This document shows, one piece after another, positions 2,105 to 53,178 of a DNA stretch of 64,000 bases. The notes under the pieces are model-generated. The model worked only from the letters and a program-made list of their open reading frames with translations. It had not been told where the DNA came from and made no database searches. A program made the position numbers and the translations under genes. Numbering within the stretch: the stretch's first letter is position 1; each line of letters begins with the position of its first letter. This stretch comes from Terriglobales bacterium (GTDB lineage: Bacteria > Acidobacteriota > Terriglobia > Bryobacterales > Bryobacteraceae): positions 1 through 64,000 of the forward strand of contig JAIXQP010000018.1 of assembly GCA_027485675.1 (NCBI GenBank). Reading direction: 5' to 3'.

Positions 2105-2125
2105 ACCCAAATTGAGGCCAATCCT

Positions 2126-38618: not shown

Positions 38619-39316
38619 TCCCGGCGGGTATATTTCTCGAGATTCCCTGCCCCGACGTCGTGGAGATGGCGAGTCTGGCCGGCTGGGACTTCGTCGTGAT
38701 CGACACCGAGCACGGGGCCCTGGGGACGGCCCAGTTGCCGGACATGCTGCGGGCTTCGCGGGTGCCGGCCATCGTCCGGGTGGCGGGCCGGGCGGATCTG
38801 CTACAGGGCGCGTTGGATTCCGGGGCGGCGGGCGTGTTGGTCCCGCAGATTCATTCCGCTGCGGAGGCCGCGGCCGTGGTGGCGGCGAGCCGGTTTTATC
38901 CGCGGGGAAAGCGGGGATTGAATGGCTTCGTGCGGGCGGCGGGGTATTCGCTCGTGCCGATGCACGAGTATATCCAGCAGCCGGTGCGCGTGGTCATTCA
39001 AATCGAGACGGCGGGCGCGCTCGCCGAGGTGGACGCGATTGCGGGGCTGGATGGCGTCGATGAGTTGTTTATTGGGCCCTATGATCTTTCGCAGGCGCTG
39101 GGGAGGCCGGGCGACGTGATGCATGCCGAGGTGCTGGGCGCGGGGCAGCGGGTGATCCACTCCGCCCACGCCGCGGGCATTGCAGTGAGCGCGTTTGCCA
39201 ATAGCCTCGAAGCCGCCGACCGCTGGCGGCAGATGGGCGTGGACCGGCTGCTCTATTCGGCCGATGGGTACCTGCTGGCGCAGGCGCTGCGGCAGGCGCG
39301 CGAATCGTTGCGTTAA
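38615..39316 (+). CDS. HpcH/HpaI aldolase family protein
   Basis: A 233-residue TIM-barrel enzyme: GIFLEIPCPDVVEMASLAGW, DFVVIDTEHGALGTAQL (catalytic His in EHG), a metal-site strand VVIQIETAGALAEVDAIAGL (Glu), then DELFIGPYDLSQALG (Asp). These are marks of class II pyruvate aldolases (HpaI/GarL). It would cleave 2-keto-3-hydroxy acids to pyruvate plus an aldehyde. The ATG overlaps the stop of the kinase paralogue (ATGA), an unusual partnership. A convergent gene begins four bases inside its end. Confidence 0.87.
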   Translation: MIPAGIFLEIPCPDVVEMASLAGWDFVVIDTEHGALGTAQLPDMLRASRVPAIVRVAGRADLLQGALDSGAAGVLVPQIHSAAEAAAVVAASRFYPRGKRGLNGFVRAAGYSLVPMHEYIQQPVRVVIQIETAGALAEVDAIAGLDGVDELFIGPYDLSQALGRPGDVMHAEVLGAGQRVIHSAHAAGIAVSAFANSLEAADRWRQMGVDRLLYSADGYLLAQALRQARESLR

Positions 39317-39771
39317 CTGGCGGGGTAGTAGCGGCCGTTCGGAAAGAGCGAGACCACGGCGGTGACCGTGGCGTCGATCCGGGTGGTGAGCTTCCATTGC
39401 GGGCAGCCGGCGCCGGGAGGGTACTGGTCGTCGTTGGCCATGGTGGCGTCGTGGCCGATGGCGGGGAAGACTTTCACGAGGCGATCGCCGCCGTCGGTTG
39501 CAAAGGAGGCCGCGGCCATGTGCGACACCTTATCGACGTCGATACCGGTCGGCGGCGTCGAGCGATGGTCGGCGACTTGGGAGTAGCCGGCGAGGCTGAA
39601 TTCGCCGGGCTTGGGAACGCGGTCGAGCTTGAGGAAGGTCGCCCCGCTCGCGAGGCGGCCGGCGTGGTAGCCGAGCGTCCTCTCGATCTCCTCGAGCGTG
39701 CGGCCCTTCAGGAATTTCTCCTTCGTGACGTAGCCGGAGACTTGGGTCTTGGACCCGACGGAAAGTGCCAT
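39313..39771 (-). CDS. Hypothetical protein
   Basis: 152 residues, no signal peptide or membrane segment. Segments that stand out: SGYVTKEKFLKGRTLEEIER, GATFLKLDRVPKPGEFSLAG and VVSLFPNGRYYPAS at the end. The Pro/Gly-rich body with conserved-looking blocks suggests a real protein, but I do not recognise a family. It is convergent with the aldolase gene (4-base overlap) and stands 17 bases behind the dehydrogenase gene, with which it may be cotranscribed. Confidence 0.55.
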   Translation of the reverse strand: MALSVGSKTQVSGYVTKEKFLKGRTLEEIERTLGYHAGRLASGATFLKLDRVPKPGEFSLAGYSQVADHRSTPPTGIDVDKVSHMAAASFATDGGDRLVKVFPAIGHDATMANDDQYPPGAGCPQWKLTTRIDATVTAVVSLFPNGRYYPAS

Positions 39772-39788
39772 ACCTGGTAACGCGGAAA

Positions 39789-40829
39789 TCAGTAACCCTT
39801 TTGCTTATCGACGACGTTCATTAATTCCATGCCGAGGGCGTAGCGACGGAGGTTTTCGGCGAACAGGTCGACGAGGCGGCGCTGCCGGTCCGGCCCCCAG
39901 CCGGAGGTGTGGGCGGTCATGACGACGTTGGGCGCGTCGAAGATAGGATGGTCGGCCGGCGGCGGTTCGGTGGGGAAGACATCGAGTCCGGCGCCGCCGA
40001 TCCAACCTTCTTTTAAGGCCTTGACGAGCGCCATATCGTCAAACAGATCGCCGCGGCTCATGCCGAGGAAGATGGCATGTTTCTGCATCTTGCGGAAGAC
40101 GCTTTCGTTGAACATGCGGCGGGTCTTCGGCGTGGAGGGCGCGGCGCTGACGAGAACGTCAACGCGCGGCACCATCTCCATGAGCCAGGACGGATCGCGC
40201 AGCTCCTCCACCCATTCGGGTTTGTGCATGGGCTTGGCGTCGGTGGCGAGCACCTTCATATCGAAGCCGAAATGGGCGCGGCGGCCGATTTCGTAACCGA
40301 TGCCGCCGAAGCCGACCAGGCCGATGGTGCGGCCGCCGAGCTCCCAATGGTCCGGGCTCTTCACGGTGCCGACCGGCTTCATCTGCCGCTTGGCGAACTG
40401 GGGCATGTAGTATTTCGTGATGCCGCGGGTGAGGCAGAGCAGCAGGCCCATGGCGGTCTCGGCGATGCCGGGGGCGAAGATGCGGGCCATGTTCGTGAAG
40501 AGAATCGGGCTCGCCATGAACTTGGGGTCGGCGCTTTCGACGCCCGCGCCGGGCGACTGCACCCATTTCACTTTCGGGGCGAAATCGAGATCGGCGCCGG
40601 TGAGGCCGCCGTAGACGATGTCGGCGTCACGGAGCTCCTTGCGGAAGGTCTCGCGGTCCTTGGCCACGACGAGGCGAATGGGGACGGCTTTGCCTTGCGT
40701 CAGCTTGGCGAGTTCGGCGGGTTCGAACTCCACCATGCTCACGACCTTCAAGGGGCCGGTCTGCGCCGTCATGACTTGCGGAGCGGCCGCGAGGCCGGAA
40801 GCTTGGAGCACTGTACGCCGGGTAATCAT
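39789..40829 (-). CDS. D-2-hydroxyacid dehydrogenase with Tat-like N terminus
   Basis: 346 residues. The NAD-binding fold shows IGLVGFGGIGYEIGRRA (GxGxxG), substrate Arg in AIFLGMSRGDLFDD, Glu in GLDVFPTEPPP and catalytic His in VVMTAHTSGWG. This is the PdxB/SerA/GhrA superfamily. The start MITRRTVLQASGLAAAPQ is a twin-arginine-like signal, rare for this normally cytoplasmic enzyme. Its ATG (40829) abuts the left copy of the element's 23-bp repeat; before the element inserted, the M20 peptidase start lay only about 18 bases away on the other strand. Confidence 0.85.
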   Translation of the reverse strand: MITRRTVLQASGLAAAPQVMTAQTGPLKVVSMVEFEPAELAKLTQGKAVPIRLVVAKDRETFRKELRDADIVYGGLTGADLDFAPKVKWVQSPGAGVESADPKFMASPILFTNMARIFAPGIAETAMGLLLCLTRGITKYYMPQFAKRQMKPVGTVKSPDHWELGGRTIGLVGFGGIGYEIGRRAHFGFDMKVLATDAKPMHKPEWVEELRDPSWLMEMVPRVDVLVSAAPSTPKTRRMFNESVFRKMQKHAIFLGMSRGDLFDDMALVKALKEGWIGGAGLDVFPTEPPPADHPIFDAPNVVMTAHTSGWGPDRQRRLVDLFAENLRRYALGMELMNVVDKQKGY

Positions 40830-40830
40830 G

Positions 40831-40853
40831 TGTGTTGTTCTATCACAATGCGC
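40831..40853 (+). repeat. Left attachment site copy (attL core, 23 bp)
   Basis: Identical over 23 bases to 51770-51792, in the same orientation. The centre has TTGT and ACAA half-sites six bases apart, the form of a tyrosine recombinase core. It lies directly upstream of the dehydrogenase start codon. Confidence 0.85.
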
Positions 40854-40877
40854 TTTTCGCGTGGGTTTCGACGTATT

Positions 40878-40901
40878 TGCTAGAACTCTGCTAGAACGCG
40901 C
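40878..40901 (+). repeat. Left inner 24-bp repeat with two TGCTAGAAC words (candidate integrase arm sites)
   Basis: The 24 bases match 51648-51671 with one difference and the same orientation. Each copy contains TGCTAGAAC twice, spaced 12 bases apart. Such tandem words close to both ends are what arm-type binding sites of tyrosine integrases look like. The left copy is 24 bases inside the att core; the right copy is 98 bases inside. Confidence 0.6.
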
Positions 40902-40912
40902 CTTCGACCGTC

Positions 40913-42121
40913 CTAATTCTTCGTTTCTTTCGAGGATTCAAGCCGGACCTTCGCCATCTGCATTTCCCAGATATCCGCCGCCTGGATCTCATCCTGCTTC
41001 AGCGCGTGGCTGTAGACCTTCGCGGTTACGCCCGTATCCTTGTGACCCAGGCGCGAGCTCACCGCGGGAAGTGGAACGCCGCCGCTTAAGAGTTGGCTCC
41101 CGTAGCTGTGGCGTAGGCTGTGAAGGCTCACCTGCTTTAATCCGGCCTTTCGCAGCATTCTTGTCGCCGCCGTGGAAACGGAACTAGGCGAACGATGCCG
41201 GCCGAGTTCATCGCCGAAAACGAGATCGGCTTCGGGCTGGTGGAGGGCCGCAATCCGCTGGCGCTGAATCTCCTGCTCCATTCGGTGGGCCTGGAGTACT
41301 TCAATCGCAGTGGGGGCAAGTTGGGCAACCCGCGCCATTCTTCCCTTTGTGCACTTGACCCGTAAGCCGGTACTGGACTGCTCGAGGTTTTTCGATATGG
41401 TTACGGTGCGAGCCTTGAAATCGATGTCCGACCACTCAAGGGAAAGCAGTTCGCCGCGCCTGGCGCCCGTCGCAGCACCCAGGACGAGTATCGGGTAGAT
41501 CCAAGTCCCTTTGGCAAACTGCAGGAGCATGTCGGTTTGCTTGAAGTCGAGGGCGATCTTCTCGGCCTCATGGATCGGGGGCATACTCACGACGTCACAG
41601 GGGTTTGAAGGAATCAATCCCCAACGAACCGCGCTCTTCAGAACGCCACTCAGTACGGTGCGGACGGAACGAACGGTTTTAGGCGCGAGGCCTTTTCTAC
41701 GGTCGCCTTTCAGCACCCGCCGCGCTCCCGTCTTCAGGAGCCCATTGAGCACTTGCTCGACTTGCATGGTCGTGATGTCCGCAAGGCGCATCGGTCCAAG
41801 TTCCGGCAGGAAGAAGCTTGCCAAGTACTCGTAGCGTTCAACTGTGGCCGCCGTGCATCGGCCGGAGGCGAACTCCCTGATCCATCGTGGGAAGAACTGC
41901 GCCAGCGTCCCAGGATCGCGCCGCGCCGCCTCTGCCGCCGCCTTCTCTGCCTTCCATTCGGCTATCGCCTTATCTTTGGCGTCTTCGGCGTCTCGCTTGA
42001 GAGGAAAGCCCGAGCCGTAAAGGAAGCGCTTCTTTCCCGCCGCATCCTTCCCGACGAAGACGCTGTATCCCCAGGAGGGCGCGTTCTTTCGCTTCGAGCG
42101 ATTGAAGATTGAGCCTGTCAT
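40913..42121 (-). CDS. Tyrosine-type site-specific integrase
   Basis: 402 residues. SAM-like core-binding region around TLAQFFPRWIREFASG and PKTVRSVRTVLSGVLKSAVR; catalytic domain with Arg in LGAATGARRGELLSLEWSDI, HSLRHSYGSQLL (HxxR), the His in RLGHKDTGVT and the tyrosine in VYSHAL. An arm-binding-like N terminus (SWGYSVFVGKDAAGKKRFLY) is typical of phage/island integrases. It sits at the extreme left next to the att site and overlaps the regulator's stop (ATGA), so the two are cotranscribed away from the rest. Confidence 0.93.
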   Translation of the reverse strand: MTGSIFNRSKRKNAPSWGYSVFVGKDAAGKKRFLYGSGFPLKRDAEDAKDKAIAEWKAEKAAAEAARRDPGTLAQFFPRWIREFASGRCTAATVERYEYLASFFLPELGPMRLADITTMQVEQVLNGLLKTGARRVLKGDRRKGLAPKTVRSVRTVLSGVLKSAVRWGLIPSNPCDVVSMPPIHEAEKIALDFKQTDMLLQFAKGTWIYPILVLGAATGARRGELLSLEWSDIDFKARTVTISKNLEQSSTGLRVKCTKGRMARVAQLAPTAIEVLQAHRMEQEIQRQRIAALHQPEADLVFGDELGRHRSPSSVSTAATRMLRKAGLKQVSLHSLRHSYGSQLLSGGVPLPAVSSRLGHKDTGVTAKVYSHALKQDEIQAADIWEMQMAKVRLESSKETKN

Positions 42122-42594
42122 TCTGACTCGACCTCATCCTCTAGCCGCTCTTTGGAGTCGGTACGGAAGGGATTGGCCTCCTCTAAAATTTGGAGCGCCG
42201 CCCGAAGTTTCAGCGCGGCCAATTGGATTGCCTGCTGTTCTTCCGTCGTTGACCATTTCAACTTGGGGATGTCCTCAGTAAGGACTCCACGGATCAATGT
42301 CGCTGCCCGAAGGGAGATCTTGGCCGATACCCCAAGGCTTTGAATGATCTTGTCGTTGAAGTAGGTGGCGAGATCCATATGGTTTTTCTCGGCTGCAAGG
42401 TTGGCGAATACGGTCATTTGACCAGGTTTGGGGATTCGGTCTGACTCGTAGTGCGCAATCGTCCGAATCGCCAAACCGAGATCGTTGGCGAACTGCTGTT
42501 GAGTTCTGCCGAGCCTTCGGCGCAACTCCTTAATCGCTTCCGGCACACTCAATTCCAGTGGATAGTGTTCAAGTTTGTTTTCTTGTTCCTGCAC
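42118..42594 (-). CDS. XRE-family regulator (satellite repressor candidate)
   Basis: The GTG at 42594, with AGGA a few bases upstream, is the chosen start; the longer frame runs through the divergent promoter. The 158-residue product has an HTH near the N terminus: VPEAIKELRRRLGRTQQQFA and NDLGLAIRTIAHYESDRIPK, then a helical part (ISLRAATLIRGVLTEDIPKL). It reads away from the excisionase/replication genes, across a region with repeated ATGCAC words, so it probably represses the early promoter. Integrase follows by ATGA overlap. Confidence 0.8.
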   Translation of the reverse strand: MQEQENKLEHYPLELSVPEAIKELRRRLGRTQQQFANDLGLAIRTIAHYESDRIPKPGQMTVFANLAAEKNHMDLATYFNDKIIQSLGVSAKISLRAATLIRGVLTEDIPKLKWSTTEEQQAIQLAALKLRAALQILEEANPFRTDSKERLEDEVESE

Positions 42595-42606
42595 GTTTTT
42601 TTCCTG

Positions 42607-42635
42607 TTGACATGCACGAGCGTTCCGGTTAGAGT
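42607..42635 (+). promoter_or_regulatory. Sigma-70-type early promoter, TTGACA-17-TAGAGT
   Basis: A consensus -35 (TTGACA, 42607-42612) and a -10-like TAGAGT (42630-42635), separated by exactly 17 bases, face the excisionase and replication genes. It is the only clear consensus promoter noticed by eye in the element. Its ATGCAC word falls in the spacer. Confidence 0.6.
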
Positions 42636-42676
42636 GGTGAACAGTTGGGCATGCACACTTTGGATTATCCGTGCAT
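42612..42676. promoter_or_regulatory. Phased ATGCAC/GTGCAT operator candidates
   Basis: ATGCAC occurs at 42612-42617 and 42651-42656 and its complement GTGCAT at 42671-42676. The starts are 39 and 20 bases apart, close to four and two DNA turns. One word is inside the promoter spacer, so binding of the XRE protein could shut off the early genes. Confidence 0.45.
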
Positions 42677-42691
42677 TCTCTGGTCCTGTCA

Positions 42692-42910
42692 ATGCCAAAA
42701 ACTCTACTCACTCCCAAAGACCTCGAAGCTGAGCTTCCCGACTTGGGCCGCTCGACCATCTACTCTCTGCTCAAGGCCGGAACGATTCCCTCGATTCGTC
42801 TCGGCAAGAAATTCTTCACCCCGCGAGCCGCGTTTGAGAAGTGGCTTGCGAACTGCTGCGAGTTAGCTATCCCGAACAACGCCGCCAAGGAGGGCGATCA
42901 AGGTGCCTAA
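42692..42910 (+). CDS. Excisionase/MerR-type small DNA-binding protein
   Basis: 72 residues from ATG 42692. The start MPKTLLTPKDLEAELPDLGR with STIYSLLKAGTIPSIRLGKK and FFTPRAAFEKWL is the winged-helix HTH_17 layout (LxxxLGxSxxTVYxLLxxGxIPxxRIGxxxxxxRxxLxxWL) of excisionase and AlpA-like proteins. It is the first gene behind the early promoter and reads divergently from the XRE gene. Likely role: directing excision by the integrase, or activating it, as AlpA does in P4-like elements. Confidence 0.83.
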   Translation: MPKTLLTPKDLEAELPDLGRSTIYSLLKAGTIPSIRLGKKFFTPRAAFEKWLANCCELAIPNNAAKEGDQGA

Positions 42911-43088
42911 GAGAATTCCACCGGATTCCCCGAAGAAAGGGAAGACACTTTTGAAGAAGGTGTTGCAGATGCCTTCCCGAGAGAAGACGCCTGCCCAGAA
43001 GCGAGCCGACGATCTCAACCGCGCAGCGCGCTGCCTTGAGCTGCTCGCCCGCCTTCTCCGGCGCATTGCGTTGGAGGTGGGCGACTGA
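42903..43088 (+). CDS. Small basic protein of unknown function
   Basis: GTG at 42903 with AAGGAGGG about eight bases upstream; 61 residues, very basic and helical: KRIPPDSPKKGKTLLKKVLQ, QKRADDLNRAARCLELLARL, LRRIALEVGD. It overlaps the previous stop by 8 bases and its own stop overlaps the next ATG (TGATG). The good ribosome site and the tight packing make it a real gene. It may bind nucleic acid. Confidence 0.6.
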   Translation: MPKRIPPDSPKKGKTLLKKVLQMPSREKTPAQKRADDLNRAARCLELLARLLRRIALEVGD

Positions 43089-43291
43089 TGAGCCGCCCCC
43101 GTGTGAACGGGTTCGACCCTCAAACGCCGAAGCTGAAGCGGCTGCAGCGTCGTCTCGACGTTGCCAACCTGAATGGCGTCGTTCGCGTCCTGAAGCGGTA
43201 CGGCACCCATGACGACCTGGCCGCCGCGACGTTGGCGCTGTGGTGTATCAGCGGACCGGCGCGGGAGAAGGCGCGGGAGGCCAGCGAATGA
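43088..43291 (+). CDS. Small protein of unknown function upstream of primase
   Basis: 67 residues: NGFDPQTPKLKRLQRRLDVA, NLNGVVRVLKRYGTHDDLAA, ATLALWCISGP. No motif recognised. Both ends overlap neighbours (TGATG and ATGA), so it is translated together with the primase-helicase and may be a partner of it. Confidence 0.55.
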   Translation: MSRPRVNGFDPQTPKLKRLQRRLDVANLNGVVRVLKRYGTHDDLAAATLALWCISGPAREKAREASE

Positions 43292-45489
43292 GTGCCGCCG
43301 CGGTTCAGCCGCGCCGCGTTGCTCCTCGTGTGCCTTCCGAGCTCCTCGACTTGGCCCAGTGGTGCCTATGGGGGCTGCACGAGGGGAGAAAGCGCCCCAT
43401 GGCACTGGAGGGTTACTGGGGGAGTTCGACCAACCCGGCGACGTGGGGAGAATACGCCGAAGCTATCGAGGCACTGGAGAACGTTCGAAACGCCGAGGGC
43501 ATAGGGTTCGTATTTACGGCCGACGACCCTTACACTGGCGTTGACCTGGACGACTGCCTGGACAACGCCGGCCGCCTGAAGCCGTGGGCTGTCGATATCC
43601 TTCGCCGGTTCGCTGGCACCTATGCCGAAGTCTCCCCGAGCGGGAGCGGCATCAAGCTGTGGTGTCGTGGCACCACCACCGCCGCCGCCAAGTTCGCCTA
43701 TCATGACGGGGCCATTGAGATCTATTCGACCGCACGGTTCTTCACCGTCACCGGCAACCTGTGGCCCGGTTCACTCCTGGAGATCGCCGATTGTCAGGAG
43801 TCGCTTGATTGGCTGCTGACGCTGAATCCGGCTGGAGCGAAGAAAGGGCCGTTTGTGCTGCCGGAGAAGATCAACCACCCGACCCAGCATAAAGACTTGC
43901 TGAGTCTGGCTGGTTCCTATCGAAGCAAAGGGATGAACCAAGCGGAGATCGAGGCCGCCTTGATTGCAGTGAGTAAGGCACGCTGCGAAGAGATTCCGCC
44001 CGAGTCTCATATGCGGACGATGGCCGCAAGCGTTTGCAAGTATCCTCCGGGGCCTTCGCTGGAGCTCGCCCAGCAAGTAGACCGGCCAACAAACTTCGGC
44101 TGGCACGATACCGGGAACGCGGACCGCCTAGTATGCCGACACGGATCAGAGCTGCTTTGGTGCGAGGAGCGTAAATCCTTTGGAGTCTGGACGGGCCAGT
44201 ATTGGAAACTCGGATCAGACTTACTGGTCAAGCGAATGGCCGAAAGAGTAATGCGAGACGCCTACGCCGAAGTCGGATCGATCGACGATACGGACAAGCG
44301 GAAAGAGTTTTTGCGGTTCCTGAATAAATCACTCTCCCGTTCTGGCGTGGCGAATATGGTGGAAGTCGCCCAGCGGAAGGTAGACCTGGTTTCGCCTGGC
44401 GACTTTGACGCCGATCCGTTTCTGTTGAACTTCGAAAACGGAACACTAGACCTCAGAAGCGGATTACTTCGGGAGCATCGACCGGCGGACAAGATCACGC
44501 GATGCATCCCATATGCGTTCGATTGGAACGCGCCATGCTCGAGGTTTCACCGATTCTTAGGCCGGATCATGGGCGACCATCCGGCCGCGACCCCCCAGGA
44601 GTGCGAGCGGGCCTATCGAATCATTGGCTACCTGCAGCGCCTCTTTGGATGCGCCTTGACCGGCAAGCCGGAGAAGATTCTCGCAATCCTGCACGGATCG
44701 GGGAACAACGGCAAAAGCACCTTGATAGAGACCATTCGAGCCGCGTTGGGCGGCAAGCAGTACGCCGGCCAAATGCAAATTGAATCCCTGATGGTCAACC
44801 CAGCACAGGCTTCTGGTTCCAACGCGATCAACGCTGACCTGGCGGACCTGCAGGGATGCCGGTTTGTGACCGCCAGTGAGCCGGAAAAGGGGATGCGGTT
44901 CTCTGTTGCTCGTATCAAGTACCTGACCGGCCTAACCGAGGTGAAGGCCCGGTATCTGAAAGAGAACCCTTTCACTTTCAAGCCGAGTCACAAGGTCTTT
45001 GTCGACGCCAACGATAGGCCGATCATCAACGATCCGCACGATGCAGTATGGAACCGCGTGAAGCTGATCCCGTTCGAAGTGAAGATCCCTGATAGTGAAA
45101 TCGACACCGGCTTAGGCGATGCCCTACTGAAGGAACTACCGGGCATAATGGCCTGGCTTGCAGAGGGCGCCCGCGAGTACATCCGCCACGGATTGCAGGA
45201 GATCCCCGAAGTTTCGGCCGCCACCGAGGAATACCGGCAGGAGTCCGACCGGCTTAAAGACTTCATCGAGGATCACTGCATCGTTCTGCCTACCGCTTGG
45301 GTAGGCGTCTCTAACCTTTGGGATGCCTACCGCAAGTGGGAAGAGGAAAACGGCGTCAAGTTCCCGCTCGTGAAAACCGCTTTCGATGAGCGTATTCAAC
45401 GACTTGGCTGCACAAAGAAGGTGAAGGAGTGCGGGACTATACGCGCTTGGCAGGGCATCGGCCTGAAGGCTAGTGGAGTGACAAAGTGA
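43288..45489 (+). CDS. P4-type primase-helicase (AEP-like primase plus D5/SF3 helicase)
   Basis: 733 residues from ATG 43288 (ATGA overlap). The N-terminal part has a primase-polymerase-like active site GIGFVFTADDPYTGVDLDDC (DxD-type acids about 86-89) and YAEVSPSGSGIKLWCRG (about 107-123, GSGIKxW is a catalytic motif). D5 N-terminal region FDADPFLLNFENGTLDLRSG, then an SF3 helicase with Walker A ILHGSGNNGKSTLIETI (about 467-483), CRFVTASEPEKGMRF (Walker B region), PSHKVFVDANDRPIINDPHD and AVWNRVKLIPFEV. Such proteins start replication of P4-like satellites and bind repeats near the origin. Repeats follow the gene directly. Confidence 0.9.
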   Translation: MSAAAVQPRRVAPRVPSELLDLAQWCLWGLHEGRKRPMALEGYWGSSTNPATWGEYAEAIEALENVRNAEGIGFVFTADDPYTGVDLDDCLDNAGRLKPWAVDILRRFAGTYAEVSPSGSGIKLWCRGTTTAAAKFAYHDGAIEIYSTARFFTVTGNLWPGSLLEIADCQESLDWLLTLNPAGAKKGPFVLPEKINHPTQHKDLLSLAGSYRSKGMNQAEIEAALIAVSKARCEEIPPESHMRTMAASVCKYPPGPSLELAQQVDRPTNFGWHDTGNADRLVCRHGSELLWCEERKSFGVWTGQYWKLGSDLLVKRMAERVMRDAYAEVGSIDDTDKRKEFLRFLNKSLSRSGVANMVEVAQRKVDLVSPGDFDADPFLLNFENGTLDLRSGLLREHRPADKITRCIPYAFDWNAPCSRFHRFLGRIMGDHPAATPQECERAYRIIGYLQRLFGCALTGKPEKILAILHGSGNNGKSTLIETIRAALGGKQYAGQMQIESLMVNPAQASGSNAINADLADLQGCRFVTASEPEKGMRFSVARIKYLTGLTEVKARYLKENPFTFKPSHKVFVDANDRPIINDPHDAVWNRVKLIPFEVKIPDSEIDTGLGDALLKELPGIMAWLAEGAREYIRHGLQEIPEVSAATEEYRQESDRLKDFIEDHCIVLPTAWVGVSNLWDAYRKWEEENGVKFPLVKTAFDERIQRLGCTKKVKECGTIRAWQGIGLKASGVTK

Positions 45490-45583
45490 CAGGTAGTGAC
45501 AGTATTTCCCCTATGCCTTACGAGGCAAAAAGAACAACTCAATCCTTAGTGGTTTTGGTGTCACTCGATGTCACTATGTCACT
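45477..45583. repeat. Mirror-symmetric heptamer repeats, candidate replication origin
   Basis: AGTGACA occurs at 45477, 45485 and 45495; its complement TGTCACT at 45559, 45569 and 45577. Steps are 8 and 10 on the left, 10 and 8 on the right, an exact mirror. The 57 bases between are AT-richer than the surroundings and contain a small hairpin (TGCCT/AGGCA, 45514-45527). It overlaps the stop of the primase-helicase gene. In P4 the initiator binds iterons at the origin, which makes this the best candidate origin in the element. Iterons may alternatively serve transcription. Confidence 0.6.
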
Positions 45584-45598
45584 CGACGAGGCAACCCG

Positions 45599-45805
45599 AT
45601 GAGCTTCCAACCCTACATCGTGCGGATTCGCCCCTGCCGCATCTGCCACGACCCGACGCCCGCGCATCGGCGGGAGCGGTTCTGTTCACCCGCCTGCCGC
45701 GCCGTCTGGAAGGAATCGTATGGTGCTCTATCCGCAGCACCGCTCGACGAATCAAACGCAACCGAAAATAACTCCCGAAATCGAAAAGGAGGCTCCAATG
45801 CCTGA
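45599..45805 (+). CDS. Small zinc-finger-like protein
   Basis: 68 residues from ATG 45599. RPCRICHDPTPAHRRERFCS and PACRAVWKES has CxxC...H...C...C, a small metal-binding finger as seen in phage-encoded zinc-ribbon/HNH-like scraps. Ends in a polar tail (DESNATENNSRNRKGGSNA). The 3' end overlaps the next start. It is the first gene behind the candidate origin. Confidence 0.55.
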   Translation: MSFQPYIVRIRPCRICHDPTPAHRRERFCSPACRAVWKESYGALSAAPLDESNATENNSRNRKGGSNA

Positions 45806-45989
45806 TTCAGACTTCAAGAAATTCATGCTGGGCCTGCGGGCCGATGCGAGACTCGGCCGGTACGTCGCGCCAGTCTGCGAGCAAACGCCCGAGGTTGTCG
45901 TTCTGACGCTGACCATGGCGCTGGCGGACGCCCGAGAGGGAAACAACCCGCACCCGGCGCACGAGCTCCTGGAGAGGCTCCAATCATGA
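45798..45989 (+). CDS. Small protein of unknown function before small terminase
   Basis: 63 residues from ATG 45798, with AAAGGAGG six bases upstream, the best ribosome site in this part. FKKFMLGLRADARLGRYVAP and VVVLTLTMALADAREGNNPH; no recognised domain. It overlaps both neighbours (8 and 4 bases), which supports reality. It might regulate the late module. Confidence 0.55.
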   Translation: MPDSDFKKFMLGLRADARLGRYVAPVCEQTPEVVVLTLTMALADAREGNNPHPAHELLERLQS

Positions 45990-46276
45990 GACCACCTAAA
46001 CACCTATCCGCCGAGAGCCGGAAGCTATTCCGGGAAATCGCCGCCGCCGTCGAGCTCGACGCCCAAGCCGCCACACTCCTACAGGGAGCGCTCGAGCAAT
46101 GGGACCGCGCCCAAGCCGCCCGCGCCCAGGTCACCGCCGATGGGCTCATGGTCGACGGCAAGCGCCATCCGCTGATCGAAGTGGAGAAGGCCGCGTATCG
46201 GGGAGCGCTGGCTTACTTCCGGGAGCTTGGCTTAGATCCGCCCAACCCGGTGGGACGCCCGAGCACGAGTTTATAG
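45986..46276 (+). CDS. Small terminase subunit (P27-like)
   Basis: 96 residues: RPPKHLSAESRKLFREIAAA, VELDAQAATLLQGALEQWDR, ADGLMVDGKRHPLIEVEKAA and YFRELGLDPPNPVGRPSTSL. The 'PPxHLSxxSRxLFREI...HPLIxVExxA...FRxLGLxP' grammar is that of P27-type small terminases. They recognise packaging sites in the element's DNA. Preceded by ATGA overlap; the large subunit is separated by a small membrane protein gene. Confidence 0.88.
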   Translation: MRPPKHLSAESRKLFREIAAAVELDAQAATLLQGALEQWDRAQAARAQVTADGLMVDGKRHPLIEVEKAAYRGALAYFRELGLDPPNPVGRPSTSL

Positions 46277-46314
46277 TATGATTCACACCACCACCCCAAA
46301 TCGCAGCGCTACCT

Positions 46315-46662
46315 ATGGAAATCATTATTTTCCCAGTAGTCATACTGGTCATACTTGGCCTGTTCCTGAATGGGTTATACAAGATGGTGACCGCATTAGC
46401 TCAAGGCCGCCAACCAGACGACGGCTTTATGGTCGTAATCGGTTATCTTCTCTTTTTGTGCAACTTGTATCCATTCGTTTTGATCGCGAAAGCGTATGGG
46501 TTTTGGGGAGGCGCCTTGTATCTTGGCTGCTCCTACCTAGCCTTTCTCCACGTGATTCTGCCATGGATAGGAGCACTTCGCAGAAGCGACTTGCCCGACA
46601 AGGGGAAGCGAGATGAGAAGGCTAAAGCGCCGCACAACCCTCAGGGCATCAACCGGCGCTGA
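46315..46662 (+). CDS. Small three-TM membrane protein between terminase genes
   Basis: 115 residues from ATG 46315. Three hydrophobic segments: IIIFPVVILVILGLFLNGLY (3-22), FMVVIGYLLFLCNLYPFVLI (38-57) and ALYLGCSYLAFLHVILPWIG (67-86), then a charged tail RRSDLPDKGKRDEKAKAP. It overlaps the large terminase gene by 50 bases in another frame. The stretch is AT-richer than the rest of the element. The slot between small and large terminase is often used for HNH genes; a membrane protein here is unexpected and could be cargo affecting helper or superinfecting phages. Confidence 0.6.
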   Translation: MEIIIFPVVILVILGLFLNGLYKMVTALAQGRQPDDGFMVVIGYLLFLCNLYPFVLIAKAYGFWGGALYLGCSYLAFLHVILPWIGALRRSDLPDKGKRDEKAKAPHNPQGINRR

Positions 46663-48238
46663 CCCTATCGCCGAAGCGCTGGCCGGGCTCTCCGGGGCCG
46701 AGCGGGTTATCCGGTTCATAGAGACGTTCCTGCGTCACTCGAAGGGATTCCGAGCCGGGGAGCCGTTCATCCTGGCCGACTGGCAGAAGGATGAAATCAT
46801 CCGGCCGCTGTACGATGCCATCGGCGAAGAAGGGCGCCGCCGCTACCGGCAAGGCTACGTCTCCATGGCACGGAAGGCCGGCAAGACCTGTTTAGCCGCG
46901 GCGCTGGCACTCTATCACCTGCTAGGCGACGAGGACATGGAGCCCGGCATCCGGGAAGTTTACGCCGCCGCCGCAAGCCGAGATCAAGCGGGGCTGCTGT
47001 TCATCCAAGCGGCCGACTTCGTGAACGCATCGCCCGAGCTATCCGCCCGCTGCGTCGTCTCCCGCGCAACCAAGCGAATCACCGACCGCGTGAGCCGTTC
47101 GTTCCTCCGCGCCGTCTCCGCGGATGCCCACACACAGCACGGGCTCAACGCCGCGTTCGTCGTCCTCGACGAGATCGCCCAGCAACCCAACCGGGATCTC
47201 TTCGACGTTCTCCAGACTTCCCAGGGAGCCCGCCGCAATCCGCTGATACTGGCCATCGGCACCGCGGGCAATGATCGCAACTCCATCGCATACGAGCTCT
47301 ACCAGCACGGCAAGCGAGTCCTGGCCGGAGACGCCGTCGACCGGAGTTTCTTCGCCTGCGTCAAAGAGCTTCCCGAGGGCCTGGACTGGGCCGAGGAGTC
47401 CAACTGGATCTATGCCAATCCGGGCTTAGACGACTTCCGCGACCGGCAGGAGCTCCGCGATATGCGCGACCGGGCCTTACTGCTGCCGAGCTTGGCCGGG
47501 ACGTTCCAGAACCTCTACTGCAATCAATGGACCGATGCTGAGACGACCTGGCTGTCAATGTCCGCATGGGACGAATGCGCCGGTATGGTGACCGATGCCG
47601 AGTTACAGAAGGCGACCGCATACGCGGGGCTCGACCTATCGAGTACGACCGACCTAACTGCGCTGGCGATTGTCTTCCGCCTGCCTGACGACCGCTACGC
47701 CGTCAAGACGTGGGCCTGGATTCCCGAGGCTGGCATCGTCGAGCGGGAGCGCCGCGACCGTGTTCCCTATCGCCAGTGGATCAAGGAAGGGCGCGTCGAG
47801 ACGACGCCCGGAGACGTGATTGATTCCCGCATCGTCGCCCGCCGCTGCATCGAGGAGTGCGAGCGCTGGAACGTCCGTTACTTGGCCTTCGACCGCTGGG
47901 GCTCTAAGATCGTCACGCCGATTCTGCAGGAGGCCGGGCTCGAAATCTTCGAGCATGGGCAAGGGTTCCGCGATATGTCGCCACCGACCAAGCACCTGCA
48001 GGATCTTGTACTTTCCCGCCGCCTGCTGCATGGAGGCTGCCCGCTGCTTCGCTGGCAGGCATCGACGGTAACGGTAGCGTCTGATCCCGCTGGCAACATC
48101 AAGCTGGTGAAACCCGATGCCATGGCCTATGCCAAGCGGATTGACTGCATCATCGCAACTGTGATGGCGCTATCTCCCGCCGCCGCATTTCCGCCCGTGG
48201 ATCACTCCGGGCTGTTCTCCGAACTCATTTCATTCTGA
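46613..48238 (+). CDS. Large terminase subunit
   Basis: 541 residues. Walker A-like GYVSMARKAGKTCLAAALAL (about 82-101), Walker B AAFVVLDEIAQQ (about 182-193), motif III-like ILAIGTAGND; nuclease domain with YAGLDLSSTTDLTALAIVF (Asp about 345) and YAKRIDCIIATVMAL at the end. ATPase and nuclease are fused as usual, in contrast to the split pair at 2.1-3.6 kb. It pumps DNA through the portal and cuts it. Start ATG 46613 lies within the membrane protein gene. Confidence 0.92.
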   Translation: MRRLKRRTTLRASTGADPIAEALAGLSGAERVIRFIETFLRHSKGFRAGEPFILADWQKDEIIRPLYDAIGEEGRRRYRQGYVSMARKAGKTCLAAALALYHLLGDEDMEPGIREVYAAAASRDQAGLLFIQAADFVNASPELSARCVVSRATKRITDRVSRSFLRAVSADAHTQHGLNAAFVVLDEIAQQPNRDLFDVLQTSQGARRNPLILAIGTAGNDRNSIAYELYQHGKRVLAGDAVDRSFFACVKELPEGLDWAEESNWIYANPGLDDFRDRQELRDMRDRALLLPSLAGTFQNLYCNQWTDAETTWLSMSAWDECAGMVTDAELQKATAYAGLDLSSTTDLTALAIVFRLPDDRYAVKTWAWIPEAGIVERERRDRVPYRQWIKEGRVETTPGDVIDSRIVARRCIEECERWNVRYLAFDRWGSKIVTPILQEAGLEIFEHGQGFRDMSPPTKHLQDLVLSRRLLHGGCPLLRWQASTVTVASDPAGNIKLVKPDAMAYAKRIDCIIATVMALSPAAAFPPVDHSGLFSELISF

Positions 48239-48302
48239 AAGTGCTTTATACTGACAAGTAGATATCTAAATCAGCGCTGCGATAGTGCGAAGGAACGTTC
48301 CC

Positions 48303-49502
48303 ATGAAACCAACCTACGCTGAAGCCGTTGCGCTGCATAGCGAACTCACCGGCATCATTGCCAAAGCCGCCGCCGAAAGCCGCGAGCTTACCGATAACGA
48401 GAAGACCCGCGTTGTCGAGATTCAAACCAAATCGGCCGAGTTTCAGGCCGCCGCCGTCGATGCCTCCGAAGGCCGCAAAGCCTTCCTGAGTGGCGTCGAG
48501 AAGAGCGACCGGAAGAAGGGCCTGGTGCTCAAGGGCGCCGATAGCTTCGCCGATCACTTCAAGACCGGCGACGAGCCCGAGCTTAGCCTGGCGAAGTCCC
48601 TGCGCGGCTACCTGACCGGCGAATGGGACGGGGCTGAACTCGAGCGCAAGGCTATGGCGTCGAGCGCCCTTGGCGCGATTCTCCCCACGCCGATCAGCAA
48701 CCAGATTATCGACCTGGCGCGGAATCAGAGCACCGTCATTCGGGCCGGGGCTGTTACCGTGCCGATGACGACCGCGACCCTGAAGCTGGCGCGGATGACC
48801 GGCGACGTTACGGCCGCCTGGTACGCCGAAGCCGGGGAGATCAGCGAATCGGACGCCACCCTGGACAGCGTGACCCTGACCGCCCGCAAGATGGCCTGTC
48901 TGGTCCGCATCAACCGCGAGATCCTGGAGGACTCCGACCCTGGCGTCGACGGCATCATCCGCAACTCTGTGGCCCAAGCCATGGCCCTGGAGCTCGACCG
49001 TGTGGCGCTGGTAGGCACCGGCACGGCACCGCAACCGCGTGGCCTGCAGAACTTCTCCGGCATCAACACCGTTACCAGCGTGGGGACGCCGGCCGATTAC
49101 TCGAAGTTTCTCGATGCCATCTTCGAGGTACGCCTGGACAACTTCGAGCCCAACGCGATCATCAATTCCGTGCGCACGGCGAAGACCCTGGCGAAGCTGT
49201 ACACCGGCATTTCCAGCGACAAAACGCCGCTGACCGCACCGGCTGACTACACCGCGTTGCAGCGCTTCGCGTCCAATCAGGTTCCCGTCAACCTTGGCGT
49301 CGGCACCAACGAATCGTTGGCCTTTGTCGGCGACTTCTCCCAACTGATGATTGGCCTTCGCCAGAACATCATCGTAGAAGTCTCGAACGCCGCGAAGGAT
49401 GTCTTCGAGAAGGATCAGATTATGCTTCGCGCCACTTGGCGCGGCGACGTTCAGGTCACCCGCGCAACCGCGTTCTGCCTGATGTCCGGCATCACTGCCT
49501 AA
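48303..49502 (+). CDS. HK97-type major capsid protein
   Basis: 399 residues from ATG 48303 (AAGGAA ahead). An N-terminal scaffold-like delta segment (about 1-115, coil KPTYAEAVALHSELTGIIAK and EIQTKSAEFQAAAVD) is followed by the mature capsid fold: SALGAILPTPISNQIIDLAR, RARMTG-like LARMTGDVTAAWYAEAGEIS, VRINREILEDSDPGVDGIIR, and LMIGLRQNIIVEVSNAAKDV to QIMLRATWRGDVQV. The presumed protease site precedes about residue 115. It is placed ahead of portal and protease, the reverse of the common order. Confidence 0.92.
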   Translation: MKPTYAEAVALHSELTGIIAKAAAESRELTDNEKTRVVEIQTKSAEFQAAAVDASEGRKAFLSGVEKSDRKKGLVLKGADSFADHFKTGDEPELSLAKSLRGYLTGEWDGAELERKAMASSALGAILPTPISNQIIDLARNQSTVIRAGAVTVPMTTATLKLARMTGDVTAAWYAEAGEISESDATLDSVTLTARKMACLVRINREILEDSDPGVDGIIRNSVAQAMALELDRVALVGTGTAPQPRGLQNFSGINTVTSVGTPADYSKFLDAIFEVRLDNFEPNAIINSVRTAKTLAKLYTGISSDKTPLTAPADYTALQRFASNQVPVNLGVGTNESLAFVGDFSQLMIGLRQNIIVEVSNAAKDVFEKDQIMLRATWRGDVQVTRATAFCLMSGITA

Positions 49503-49511
49503 CCCTGATGG

Positions 49512-49529
49512 GGGCTCTTCGGAGCCCCT
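49512..49529 (+). terminator. Intercistronic UUCG-capped hairpin behind capsid gene
   Basis: GGGGCTC and GAGCCCC pair perfectly around a TTCG loop, ten bases behind the capsid stop and 20 ahead of the portal start. No run of T follows, so it is probably an attenuator or RNA stabiliser that raises the ratio of capsid to portal. Confidence 0.6.
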
Positions 49530-49548
49530 ACTCCGAAATGGAGGGACC

Positions 49549-50745
49549 ATGATCCGAAAGGCAATCGAGTATCTTCTCACCAAGTCGGGTTTCGCCCGCC
49601 CGGAGCCCTGGCTCCGCGATACGTTAGGCATCCAAGAGACCTGGAGCGGGGCCGAAGTCACCGCTGAGAACTCGCTCCAGTCTTCCGCCGTGGCCGCCTG
49701 CGTCCGCCTCCTCTCTGAGAGCGTGGCATCGCTGCCGCTGTTCGTCTATCGTCGCACCGACGACGACAAGGCGAAGGCGCCGGACCATCCGTTGTATGCC
49801 ATCCTGCACGACCAACCGAACGATTATCAATCGGCCTGGACGTTCAAACAACAACTGCTGTCCCACGTTCTGCTCTACGGCAACGCCTACAGCATCATCG
49901 ACCGCGACGACTCCGGCCGCGTGAAGGCGCTATGGCCGCTGATGCCGGGAAACGTGTCTATCCGCGCCGTCGATGGCCGCCTGGTCTATGAGGTATGGCA
50001 GAACGGCAAGCGGGCGGAATACGATTCTGAGGACGTGCTCCACGTTCGCGGGCCAAGCTTGGACGGTATCCGCGGCATGAGCATTATCAGCATGGCGCGG
50101 CAAGGCATCGGCCTGGATCAAGCGCTGGCGCAACACGGCGCTAGCACGTTCAAGAATGGCGGCCGCCCGGGGCTGATCGTGAAGACGCCGCAAGTACTCA
50201 ACAACGAAGCCCGCCAACAATTTGTCAAGAGTTGGGCCGATCAATTCTCCGGGGCTCTCCGTGCGGGAAAGACGGCGTTGGTCGATGGTGGCTTCGACGT
50301 TCAGGAAATCAAGTCGAGCAACGACGACGCCCAGTTTCTGCAATCGCGTCAATTCAGCGTTCAGGAGATCGCCCGATGGTTCCGCGTAAGCGCCCACATG
50401 ATCGGCGACCCGTCGCGCCTGGCCTACGCCAGTAGCGAAGTCGAGATGCTGGCCTTCCTGCAGCATTCCTTGCGCCCGTGGCTGGTGAACATAGAGAGCG
50501 AGATCAACCGGACGTTGCTACCGTGGCGAACGCAATTCTTCGCCGAGTTCAGCATCGACGCCCTGCAGCGGGCCGACACCAAGAGCCGGTATGAGTCCTA
50601 CGCCATCGGCATCGACAAGGGCTTTCTGGAGGTCGAGGACATTCGCAAGTGGGAGAATCTCCCGCCCAAGCGGACGCCCGCCGCCGCGCCCGCAATGATT
50701 CCTGCGCAACCCGCGCCCGAGGTGACCGCCGATGTTGTTCAATGA
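49549..50745 (+). CDS. HK97-family portal protein
   Basis: 398 residues: VTAENSLQSSAVAACVRLLS, SVASLPLFVYRRTDDDK, ILHDQPNDYQSAWTFKQQLL, LLYGNAYSIIDRDDSGRVKA, LHVRGPSLDGIRGMSIISMA, GRPGLIVKTPQVLNNEARQQ, IARWFRVSAHMIGDP (the portal signature 'ARxFxVPPxxIG'), RTLLPWRTQFFAEFSIDALQ. Full-length and intact. It would form the dodecameric entry for DNA. The protease gene starts 14 bases inside its end. Confidence 0.92.
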   Translation: MIRKAIEYLLTKSGFARPEPWLRDTLGIQETWSGAEVTAENSLQSSAVAACVRLLSESVASLPLFVYRRTDDDKAKAPDHPLYAILHDQPNDYQSAWTFKQQLLSHVLLYGNAYSIIDRDDSGRVKALWPLMPGNVSIRAVDGRLVYEVWQNGKRAEYDSEDVLHVRGPSLDGIRGMSIISMARQGIGLDQALAQHGASTFKNGGRPGLIVKTPQVLNNEARQQFVKSWADQFSGALRAGKTALVDGGFDVQEIKSSNDDAQFLQSRQFSVQEIARWFRVSAHMIGDPSRLAYASSEVEMLAFLQHSLRPWLVNIESEINRTLLPWRTQFFAEFSIDALQRADTKSRYESYAIGIDKGFLEVEDIRKWENLPPKRTPAAAPAMIPAQPAPEVTADVVQ

Positions 50746-51223
50746 ACTGGAGCTCAAGAGCCTGACTGAGGCGGGAGAGTTCGAGGGATGGGCCGCCCGC
50801 TACTCGAACGTGGATTCCCAGAACGATCGCATCGAGCCGGGGGCCTTCGCCGCGGATGACGGGAAGGAAATCCCGATTCTCTGGAACCACAAACAGGATG
50901 TTGTGGCCGGAGTCGGCACCCTGCAGGAGCGCCCGGAAGGGCTCTATCTCAAGGGCCGTTTGCTACTCGACACGACCGAGGGCCGGGACGTATACGCCCG
51001 ACTCCGAGCGGGAGCCGCGAAAGGTTTGTCCGTGGGTTTCCGACTGCTCGAAAAGGCCGCCGAGGGAGCCCTGCGGCTGATCCTGCGGGGCTCCGTGGCC
51101 GAAGTGAGCGTTACCACCTTTCCCGCCAATCCCGCCGCCCTGGTGACCGCTGTGAAGGCGAAGCCGGGGCCGTGCGAATCCATTCACCGACTTTTAGCAC
51201 CGGAGCTCTACCTCCGGCGCTAG
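50732..51223 (+). CDS. HK97-family prohead protease
   Basis: 163 residues: FEGWAARYSNVDSQNDRIEP, IPILWNHKQDVVAGVGTLQE (His about 51), GRDVYARLRAGAAKGLSVGF (Ser about 97), LRGSVAEVSVTTFPANPAAL. These are the His and Ser of the HK97 U35-type protease that trims the capsid delta domain. The length is at the short end for the family but the catalytic part is whole. It overlaps the portal gene by 14 bases and is the last head gene. Confidence 0.9.
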   Translation: MLFNELELKSLTEAGEFEGWAARYSNVDSQNDRIEPGAFAADDGKEIPILWNHKQDVVAGVGTLQERPEGLYLKGRLLLDTTEGRDVYARLRAGAAKGLSVGFRLLEKAAEGALRLILRGSVAEVSVTTFPANPAALVTAVKAKPGPCESIHRLLAPELYLRR

Positions 51224-51225
51224 AA

Positions 51226-51282
51226 CGCCGTGCTGTACACGGCGATACCCCCCGCTGGCTTTTCGCGTTAGCTGGCGGGGGG
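51226..51282. terminator. Pair of hairpins between head genes and the right-end minus gene
   Basis: Two stems follow the protease stop: CGCCGTG/CACGGCG with a five-base loop (51226-51244) and CCCCCCGC/GCGGGGGG (51248-51255 with 51275-51282). No T run follows on either strand. They lie between convergent genes and probably end both transcripts. Confidence 0.55.
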
Positions 51283-51288
51283 AGAGAA

Positions 51289-51615
51289 TCAACTGTCCTG
51301 GAACTTTCTCAGATAGTTCACTCGATCCCGGAATTCGACCTTCGCCTCTGCAAGAACGTCGAACCATTTACCACTCGGCTTGGTGTTTGTCCTCGCTTGA
51401 TTGGTGGTGTTGAGAGCCTGAAGGATAACCTTGGCGGCTTCCGCTCCCTTCACTTCATCAGCAATGGAGCGCCAACGGGCTTTCAATTCCTCGTATCGTG
51501 CACGGGCCAATTGAGGATCGGAGAATCGACCTCCAAGAAATAATTCGTCGATCCTGGCGATGTCTCCCAAACAGGACTCGTGAATCATGATCTCTTCTTC
51601 GCGGGAAAGTTCCAT
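51289..51615 (-). CDS. Accessory protein of the satellite, function unknown
   Basis: 108 residues: MELSREEEIMIHESCLGDIA, RIDELFLGGRFSDPQLARAR, YEELKARWRSIADEVKGAEA, KWFDVLAEAKVEFRDRVNYL. Entirely soluble and helical, no motif recognised. It is the only gene beyond the head module and reads opposite to it, ending at the hairpins. The placement at the distal end near att is typical of cargo or helper-interference genes in satellites. A GGAAAGTTCC stretch precedes the ATG; the ribosome site is weak. Confidence 0.6.
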   Translation of the reverse strand: MELSREEEIMIHESCLGDIARIDELFLGGRFSDPQLARARYEELKARWRSIADEVKGAEAAKVILQALNTTNQARTNTKPSGKWFDVLAEAKVEFRDRVNYLRKFQDS

Positions 51616-51647
51616 GGCCGTATTGTAGCCGCGCCAACAGGACTCTC

Positions 51648-51671
51648 TGCTAGAACGCTGCTAGAACGCGC
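51648..51671 (+). repeat. Right inner 24-bp repeat with two TGCTAGAAC words
   Basis: Matches 40878-40901 except for one base, same orientation. Contains TGCTAGAAC at its start and again 12 bases on. Candidate arm-type sites for the integrase on the right end. Confidence 0.6.
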
Positions 51672-51769
51672 TGAAAACGGCCTGATATCTGGCAGCATTG
51701 GCCGAACTACTTAAACGGAAAATCAACAAGATAGCATCGGGGCAAACAGGTTGATATGCGGGGAGGGCA

Positions 51770-51792
51770 TGTGTTGTTCTATCACAATGCGC
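51770..51792 (+). repeat. Right attachment site copy (attR core, 23 bp)
   Basis: Identical to 40831-40853. Its last six bases (ATGCGC) supply the start codon and second codon of the M20 peptidase, so insertion leaves this coding start whole. The left copy carries the same ATGCGC without a gene behind it. Confidence 0.85.
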
Positions 51793-53178
51793 CTTCTGAT
51801 TTGCCTCCTCGCTCCCTTGCTGCACGGCCAGGTGACGGCGAAGGTCGACCTGCACGCCGAGCGGCTCGGCACGCTCTCCCGGCAGATCTGGGAGTTGGCC
51901 GAAGTCGGCTACAAAGAGGAGAAGAGCTCCGCCTTGCTGCAGGCCGAACTGCGGCGCGCGGGGTTCACCGTGGAGACCGGAACCGGCGGCATTCCCACGG
52001 CCTTCGTCGCCACCTACGGCTCCGGCAAACCGGTCATCGGCCTGATGGCGGAGTACGACGCGCTGCCCGGCCTGTCGCAGGAAGACTCGCCGAAACGCGC
52101 CCCCCGCGTCGCCAATGCCCCCGGCCATGGATGCGGCCACAACCTGCTCGGCGCCGGCTCCGTACTCGCGGCCATCGCCCTCAAGGAACAGGGCTTCCGC
52201 GGCACCCTGAAAGTCTTCGGCACCCCGGCCGAAGAGGGCGGCGGCGGCAAGGTCTACATGATCCGCGCGGGCGCCTTCGCCGATGTCGACGCCGTGCTCG
52301 CCTGGCACCCCGGCGATGCCAACCAAGCCAGCCTGCGCACCACCCTCGCCAACATCACCGCGAAGTTCCGCTTCCGCGGCACCGCCGCCCACGCCGCCAT
52401 GAACCCGGAGCAGGGCCGCTCCGCGCTCGACGCCGCAATGCTGTTCAACCACGCCATCGACCTGCTCCGCGAGCACGTGCCCCAAGAGACCCGGATGCAC
52501 TACATCGTCACGCAGGGCGGCGTGGCGCCGAACGTGGTGCCGGACTTCGCCGAAGTCTATGTCTACGCGCGGCACCCGTCGATGAAGGTGCTCGACAACG
52601 TCTGGAGCCGCATTGAAAAGGCCGCCGCCGGCGCAGCGCTCGCCACCGAAACCAGGCAGGAGATGGCCATTCAATCCTCCGTCTACAACATGCTGCCCAA
52701 CGACGGGCTGGCCGCAATGTACGACCGGCACCTGCGGGTGCTCGGCGGCATTCAGTACGGCGCCGAGGAGAAGGAGTTCGCCACCAAACTGCGAGCGACT
52801 CTCTTCGCGGAACCCGAACTCGCCCTCGGCAGCGAAGCGCAGATTCAGCCAGTGGCCAACGGGGCCGGCACGGGGTCGACCGACGCCGCCGATGTCTCCT
52901 GGGTGGTGCCGACCTCGGAACTCAGCATCGCCACCTTCGCCCCCGGCATTCCCTTTCACTCGTGGCAATCGACCGCCTGCTCCGGAATGAGCATTGGCCG
53001 CAAAGGCATGGTGCTCGCCGCCAAGGTGCTCGCCCTCACGGCGATGGACCTCTATAGCGACCCCAAACAGTTAGCGGCCGTTCGCGCCGCTTTCGACAAG
53101 CGGCGCGCCGGATTCACCTACGAATCGCGACTGCCGAAAGACGCCAAGCCGCCGCTGAACTACCGCGACACCAAGTAA
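51787..53178 (+). CDS. M20 family metallopeptidase (AbgB-like amidohydrolase)
   Basis: 463 residues from ATG 51787, which lies in the att repeat and starts a signal peptide (MRLLICLLAPLLHGQ); longer starts come from element sequence. Metal-site motifs are IGLMAEYDALPGLSQED, APGHGCGHNLLGAG (about 113-126) and GTPAEEGGGGK (about 145-155, catalytic Glu). The dimerisation domain follows (KFRFRGTAAHAAMNPEQGRS), then GSTDAADVSWVVPTSELSIA. Relatives cleave amide bonds of N-acyl amino acids or p-aminobenzoyl-glutamate. Exported form. Its 3' end overlaps the convergent DUF6986 gene by 19 bases. Confidence 0.9.
   Translation: MRLLICLLAPLLHGQVTAKVDLHAERLGTLSRQIWELAEVGYKEEKSSALLQAELRRAGFTVETGTGGIPTAFVATYGSGKPVIGLMAEYDALPGLSQEDSPKRAPRVANAPGHGCGHNLLGAGSVLAAIALKEQGFRGTLKVFGTPAEEGGGGKVYMIRAGAFADVDAVLAWHPGDANQASLRTTLANITAKFRFRGTAAHAAMNPEQGRSALDAAMLFNHAIDLLREHVPQETRMHYIVTQGGVAPNVVPDFAEVYVYARHPSMKVLDNVWSRIEKAAAGAALATETRQEMAIQSSVYNMLPNDGLAAMYDRHLRVLGGIQYGAEEKEFATKLRATLFAEPELALGSEAQIQPVANGAGTGSTDAADVSWVVPTSELSIATFAPGIPFHSWQSTACSGMSIGRKGMVLAAKVLALTAMDLYSDPKQLAAVRAAFDKRRAGFTYESRLPKDAKPPLNYRDTK

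Follow-up and report, generated by a model that had tools for sequence, protein, structure and literature searches.

Gene content of the element

We analyzed a stretch of 64,000 nucleotides (the window) from a Terriglobales bacterium (GenBank assembly GCA_027485675.1, contig JAIXQP010000018.1), in which an integrated element of 10.96 kb (~11 kb) at positions 40831 to 51792 was examined as a candidate capsid-forming phage satellite. Contig C33 of the host genome (G000), a 6.59-Mb draft assembly of a soil-type acidobacterium, contains the window. As an earlier note on this DNA had claimed from the letters alone, the element is bounded by exact direct repeats of 23 bp (TGTGTTGTTCTATCACAATGCGC), and we located both copies, the attachment site cores attL (40831 to 40853) and attR (51770 to 51792); the chance expectation for one such exact pair in 14 kb is about 1e-6.

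Protein families were assigned by Pfam and PHROG searches (E values follow the family names), and all reading frames of the element were intact. The head genes form a block on the plus strand, consisting of the terminase small subunit TerS of the P27/Terminase_4 type (45986 to 46276; PF05119, 1.7e-5; phrog_83, 2.8e-7), the terminase large subunit TerL of 541 amino acids (aa) (46613 to 48238; PF20441, 6.4e-38; PF03354, 2.9e-24; phrog_9, 3.9e-143), an HK97-fold major capsid protein of 399 aa (48303 to 49502; PF05065, 1.2e-35), a portal protein of 398 aa (49549 to 50745; PF04860, 4e-109), and an S78 prohead protease of 163 aa (50732 to 51223; PF04586, 4.5e-23; phrog_80, 3.3e-37). At the other end, a tyrosine integrase of 402 aa (40913 to 42121; PF00589, 2.3e-25; phrog_1, 5.7e-64) and an XRE-type repressor candidate (42118 to 42594; PF12844, 2.9e-8) are encoded on the minus strand; the open frame of the latter extends to 42759 and its start is uncertain, GTG at 42594 being the likely one. 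They are followed on the plus strand by an excisionase/AlpA-like HTH_17 protein of 72 aa (42692 to 42910; PF12728, 1.3e-7; phrog_66, 4.5e-7) and a primase-helicase of 733 aa (43288 to 45489; PF08706, 2.5e-28; phrog_1829, 1.1e-129), for which an alternative upstream start (GTG at 43240) would give 749 aa. Thus, the gene list of the earlier note held, except that its term "P4-type" for the primase was loose, the protein being of the D5_N/phrog_1829 type.

The other open reading frames (ORFs) are small. On the plus strand lie a 61-aa ORF without a family match (42903 to 43088), a 67-aa early ORF (43088 to 43291), and two ORFs conserved beside terS, namely, a zinc-finger-like one of 68 aa (45599 to 45805; phrog_1271, 0.005) with weak similarity to HNH endonucleases and one of 64 aa (45795 to 45989). 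A hydrophobic accessory ORF of 115 aa without a family match (46315 to 46662, plus strand) lies in the gap between terS and terL, and its product is probably membrane spanning; a 108-aa accessory ORF (51289 to 51615, minus strand) adjoins attR. As had been supposed, none of the remaining small ORFs matched a connector, tail, or lysis family in Pfam or PHROG. An Rfam search of positions 38000 to 54500 gave no match.

A circular relative and selection on the genes

A metagenomic viral contig of 10,121 bp (L016) has a terminal overlap of 123 bp and closes into a circle with a unit of 9,998 bp. Its gene set is that of the window element, with identities of 84% for the capsid (as also in L015, another viral locus), 83% for the integrase, 81% for the excisionase-like protein, 96% for the 67-aa ORF, 60% for the 68-aa ORF, and 46% for the 64-aa ORF (L015 and L016), and no tail or lysis genes were recognized in it. 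Between its protease and integrase genes lies a single core (attP) sharing 22 of the 23 bases with the window, and paired TGCTAGAAC arm sites stand 122 bp before and 47 bp after this core. These are the distances found in the window for the right integrase arm-type site at attR (51648 to 51671, plus strand) and the left one at attL, with two TGCTAGAAC units (40878 to 40901, plus strand). When L016 is rotated to the core, it and the window element are colinear over their full lengths; L016 was also the sole match when viral contigs were scanned with the core pattern. The sequences thus show that the element integrates by its own tyrosine integrase and that a related element exists as a circle with an attP.

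The ratio of nonsynonymous to synonymous substitution rates (dN/dS) between the window and L016 was 0.08 for the integrase, 0.20 for terL, 0.18 for the capsid, 0.23 for the portal, and 0.17 for the protease, and none of the shared genes tested reached 0.45. The shared genes are evidently under purifying selection, that is, working genes. The replication genes differ: the L016 primase is related but only 41% identical, and L015 has another replication helicase. Likewise, the 115-aa and 108-aa ORFs are found in the window only; the former is absent in L016, where terS abuts terL, and the latter is absent in L016 and replaced in L015, its position varying among relatives. The replication and cargo parts are modular.

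Attachment site and flanking host genes

Searching related genomes for empty sites, as had been proposed, was successful. An uninterrupted attB (joined window flanks, 0.9 kb, core kept) was found in four congeneric genomes (G149, G156, G154, and G157). Because the circular relative has the core as attP with equal arm spacing, and because the uninterrupted site occurs in these four genomes, the 23-bp repeats are true attachment sites and the real ends of the element.

In the window genome, a 2-hydroxyacid dehydrogenase-like gene and an M20-peptidase-like gene (putative names, from sequence alone) are transcribed divergently, with 18 bp between their start codons. The element is integrated in this gap, nearly all of which is filled by the core; the attR core contains the ATG (51787) of the downstream M20-peptidase-like gene. 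In the empty sites, too, the core (window 40827 to 40853 and 51770 to 51789) nearly fills the 18-bp gap, and integration cuts both genes off from their native upstream DNA. Both start codons survive integration and each gene receives new upstream DNA; the expression of the two genes may change upon integration.

In a further genome (G113, contig C127, 67541 to 68417; L054), attB holds an 876-bp insert between degraded core copies. An ORF in it is related (E value, 7e-12) to a cargo gene beside the integrase of the G088 element described below, and the insert is probably the scar of a satellite that once occupied this site. A second element suspected at the same attB in genome G004 was rejected, as host genes are located there.

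A clade sharing the gene order

We compared gene order in 80 viral loci with related TerL. The order TerS-TerL-capsid-portal-protease was found only in L015, L016, L030, and L086 to L090, several members of the group being partial contigs, and, besides these, in an acidobacterial genome (G088); the order TerL-capsid-portal-protease occurred in none of the phages examined. The group forms one clade, with Shimodaira-Hasegawa-like approximate likelihood ratio test (SH-aLRT) supports of 98 in the TerL tree and 100 in the capsid tree (quick trees, no bootstrap). No tail genes were recognized in the clade by sequence comparison and reading, the PHROG search having covered some ORFs only.

G088 (CADECY010000019, uncultured Acidobacteria bacterium) belongs to the same family as the window genome, in line with the acidobacterial host that the earlier note had named, and was the only hit when genome contigs were scanned for relatives of the element. 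Its head block is that of the window element; an integrase gene lies shortly past the protease end and replication genes lie past TerS, where the contig ends. L030 (IMGVR 3300020147_000134) shares the clade and the order, with the capsid 53%, TerL 51%, and portal 57% identical. It differs in having two genes without a counterpart in the window element, one for an HNH nuclease and one for a head-tail adaptor (phrog_442, 3.9e-27), and in its replication genes, which are unlike those of the window; a 303-aa ORF 3' of its protease gave only a marginal tail match (E value, 0.075). By these comparisons, the clade appears to be mostly without neck genes.

Tailed phages showed less than 30% identity to the element capsid. 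The neighbors beyond the clade in the capsid tree are mostly acidobacterial capsid loci with integrase or replication genes, together with the Clostridioides difficile plasmid pCD630. The 25 most-matched PHROGs of these acidobacterial loci included no family of portal, TerL, or tail proteins. In six loci (L024 in G116, L025 in G100, L026 in G030, L028 in G008, L029 in G049, and L080 in G418), integrase or replication genes stand close to a related HK97 capsid gene, and these loci are possibly capsid-only satellites. The plasmid pCD630 (NC_008226.2; 7.9 kb) has an HK97 capsid gene (5996 to 7327) and HNH genes; its capsid matches that of the element (1e-25) better than any listed phage, and it is possibly a plasmid-form satellite. 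Given capsid-only elements and a plasmid as tree neighbors, there is a hint that capsid genes circulate among satellites. Furthermore, four IMG/VR contigs of 9.3 to 9.6 kb (L094, L096, L097, and L098) have TerL, portal, and an integrase-like gene, the capsid being detected in L094 and L096, and L097 appears circularly permuted relative to L096. These contigs, placed in a sister region of the TerL tree, probably represent a further family of small, complete satellites.

Helper search and a head-tail cluster in the host genome

The earlier note had suggested looking for a helper prophage in the same genome. This was unsuccessful: PF04860 and PF03354 are single copy in the host genome and PF10145 is absent, and a resident helper prophage was rejected. 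PF03237 had eight matches, including one at window positions 1463 to 2938; at least several of the eight belong to a repeated nonprophage gene pair and one to the cluster described next. The repeated pair consists of a protein with an NGAKSQGPxTxxGK motif followed by a terminase-like ATPase, and no obvious prophage surrounded it in the short stretches viewed.

The only head-tail cluster found in the genome spans 16.6 kb of contig C34 (11092 to 27661; L200/L201). It has genes for TerL, a portal, a P22-type capsid, tail proteins, a 1304-aa tail hub, and a 928-aa tail TIM-barrel protein, and no integrase or replication gene. Within the host family, a tail-hub homologue was found in 199 of 237 genomes (84%), representing 71 of 76 genera, and, outside the family, in one sampled genome only. 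The gene order is conserved in nine sampled genomes, the cluster adjoins ilvBNC both in the window genome and in three congeners that were sampled, and the capsid has a dN/dS of 0.012. This profile is the one expected of a domesticated gene transfer agent (GTA)-like particle, and the cluster is a strong candidate for an undescribed GTA-like particle in Acidobacteriota. Although an incidental find, it may matter more than the satellite itself.

Interpretation and alternatives

Taken as a whole, the element is most probably an integrative capsid-forming phage satellite that would spread with the tails of another phage. The proposed cycle would begin with a helper phage lifting XRE repression, upon which the excisionase and integrase would excise the element and its primase-helicase would replicate the excised DNA. 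Capsid, portal, and protease would then assemble small heads, into which the element's own TerS and TerL would package its 10- to 11-kb genome in a self-specific manner, and the helper phage would provide neck, tail, and lysis. Since the element has no recognizable head-tail connector or head closure gene, the neck is probably taken from the helper together with the tail; either this is the case or a small protein has escaped recognition.

Several points weigh against this reading. Induction, particles, packaging, and transfer, like the dependence on a helper tail, are predicted from the genes; neck genes were not recognizable in the element; the circularity of L016 is an assembly overlap, not one seen in reads; and in the host assembly, a draft of 54 contigs, the only PF04860 portal and PF03354 terminase found were those of the element, and a PF10145 tape measure was not found. 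However, the absence of a resident helper would not exclude a helper, because those of the capsid-forming phage-inducible chromosomal island (cfPICI) of E. coli EDL933 were foreign (PMC11389934).

A dead or decaying prophage, deprived of its tail and lysis genes, would also leave a tail-less head block, and cultured and database phages do share TerL and portal with the element at about 40% identity. However, L015 and L016 have the same tail-less block, the latter as a complete circle, purifying selection acts on the genes, attR is intact and has the protease close by, the order TerL-capsid-portal-protease is foreign to the phages examined, and no close tailed relative was found. We rejected a decayed prophage on the grounds of L016, which largely refutes it, purifying selection, and the clade-wide order, and consider it very unlikely. 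Indeed, since its close relatives have the same head genes, the element is by all appearances a member of a real, maintained family rather than a broken prophage. Likewise, no tail, connector, or lysis genes of its own beyond the repeats, no false ends, and no close relatives that are complete prophages came to light, any of which the earlier note would have taken as contradicting it.

Two other readings were considered. The GTA-like cluster could in principle donate tails, in place of an infecting phage: it is the sole tail-gene set seen in the host genome with the families tested, its hub occurs in 84% of family genomes, and G088, which has the satellite relative, has the hub too. However, it carries a P22-type capsid of its own, its portal belongs to a different family, and, with the cluster in nearly every genome, co-occurrence says little; we give very little credence to this reading, in which its tail would have to fit HK97-type heads. 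A broader version, in which an old satellite-only capsid lineage of Acidobacteriota, comprising the head-block members and capsid-only mini-elements, takes neck and tail from this family-fixed particle instead of an infecting phage, is equally improbable. Alternatively, DNA-filled capsids might act without tails within the cell or exit by lysis or vesicles, which would make this a tail-less integrative element, as the lack of neck and tail genes and of an identified helper prophage would allow. Yet portal and a dedicated terminase pair resemble the heads of tailed phages, no entry function is present, and the recovery of L016 as a viral contig fits tailed transmission at least equally; this reading is very unlikely. 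A satellite using the tails of an infecting helper phage remains the preferred reading. The natural circular form, the attP/attB pair, and the empty sites make excision directly testable, and the unusual order and mostly missing neck genes of the clade raise the question of how a satellite head docks to a foreign tail without a connector of its own.

Comparison with known satellites

Capsid-forming satellites have been described in other phyla (PMC11389934, PMC10654092, PMC10690885), and our literature search on phage satellites with Acidobacteria or Acidobacteriota found no paper joining both. Candidate capsid-encoding PICIs of Mycobacterium, including phiRv1 and phiRv2, are small integrated elements with integrase and capsid, termed PICI-like (PMC10654092); compared by description only, they differ in their actinobacterial hosts. 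The satellites in the Streptomyces Mulch and Flayer systems also encode encapsidation machinery and, again by description only, lack key replication genes (PMC10690885), whereas the window element has a primase-helicase.

The cfPICI reported in E. coli EDL933 is mobilized by helper phages, and cfPICI capsids fall into three radiations (PMC11389934, review); none of the 17 resident EDL933 prophages detectably mobilized it, the helpers that did being foreign (PMC11389934). Our reference locus (NZ_CP008957, 1680329 to 1694760), equated with the published EcCIEDL933 by content and strain, is an annotated tail-less element with the order int-HTH-replication-capsid-protease-portal-closure-connector-HNH-TerS(P27)-TerL, HTH denoting helix-turn-helix. 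Both elements have an integrase, an AlpA/HTH protein, a replication gene, an HK97-type capsid, portal, protease, P27 TerS, and TerL, have no tail or lysis genes, and measure about 10 to 15 kb. The window element thus has the cfPICI features of its own integrase between att repeats, an AlpA/excisionase-like regulator, its own primase/replication gene, and its own capsid, protease, portal, TerS, and TerL, and it lacks the tail and lysis genes of a complete prophage. In contrast, the EDL933 order capsid-protease-portal-closure-connector-HNH-TerS-TerL differs from TerS-TerL-capsid-portal-protease in the window, where closure and connector genes are missing and an HNH gene is not clearly present; head closure and connector genes were not found by PHROG or Pfam, and neither those of EDL933 nor the L030 adaptor gave a significant match in the element when used as queries. 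Comparing the head proteins with a known cfPICI, as had been advised, gave matches for TerL (32% identity), portal (31%), and protease (24%) and no significant one for the capsid, and the EDL933 element, the single cfPICI reference sampled, lies far away in the TerL and capsid trees. Because the neck genes are absent, the order differs, and the trees place the two far apart, we do not file the element as a member of the described cfPICIs. The earlier proposal of a cfPICI-like satellite nevertheless stands with respect to composition, att ends, empty sites, and a circular relative, and the element is cfPICI-like by composition and would work like a capsid-forming PICI.

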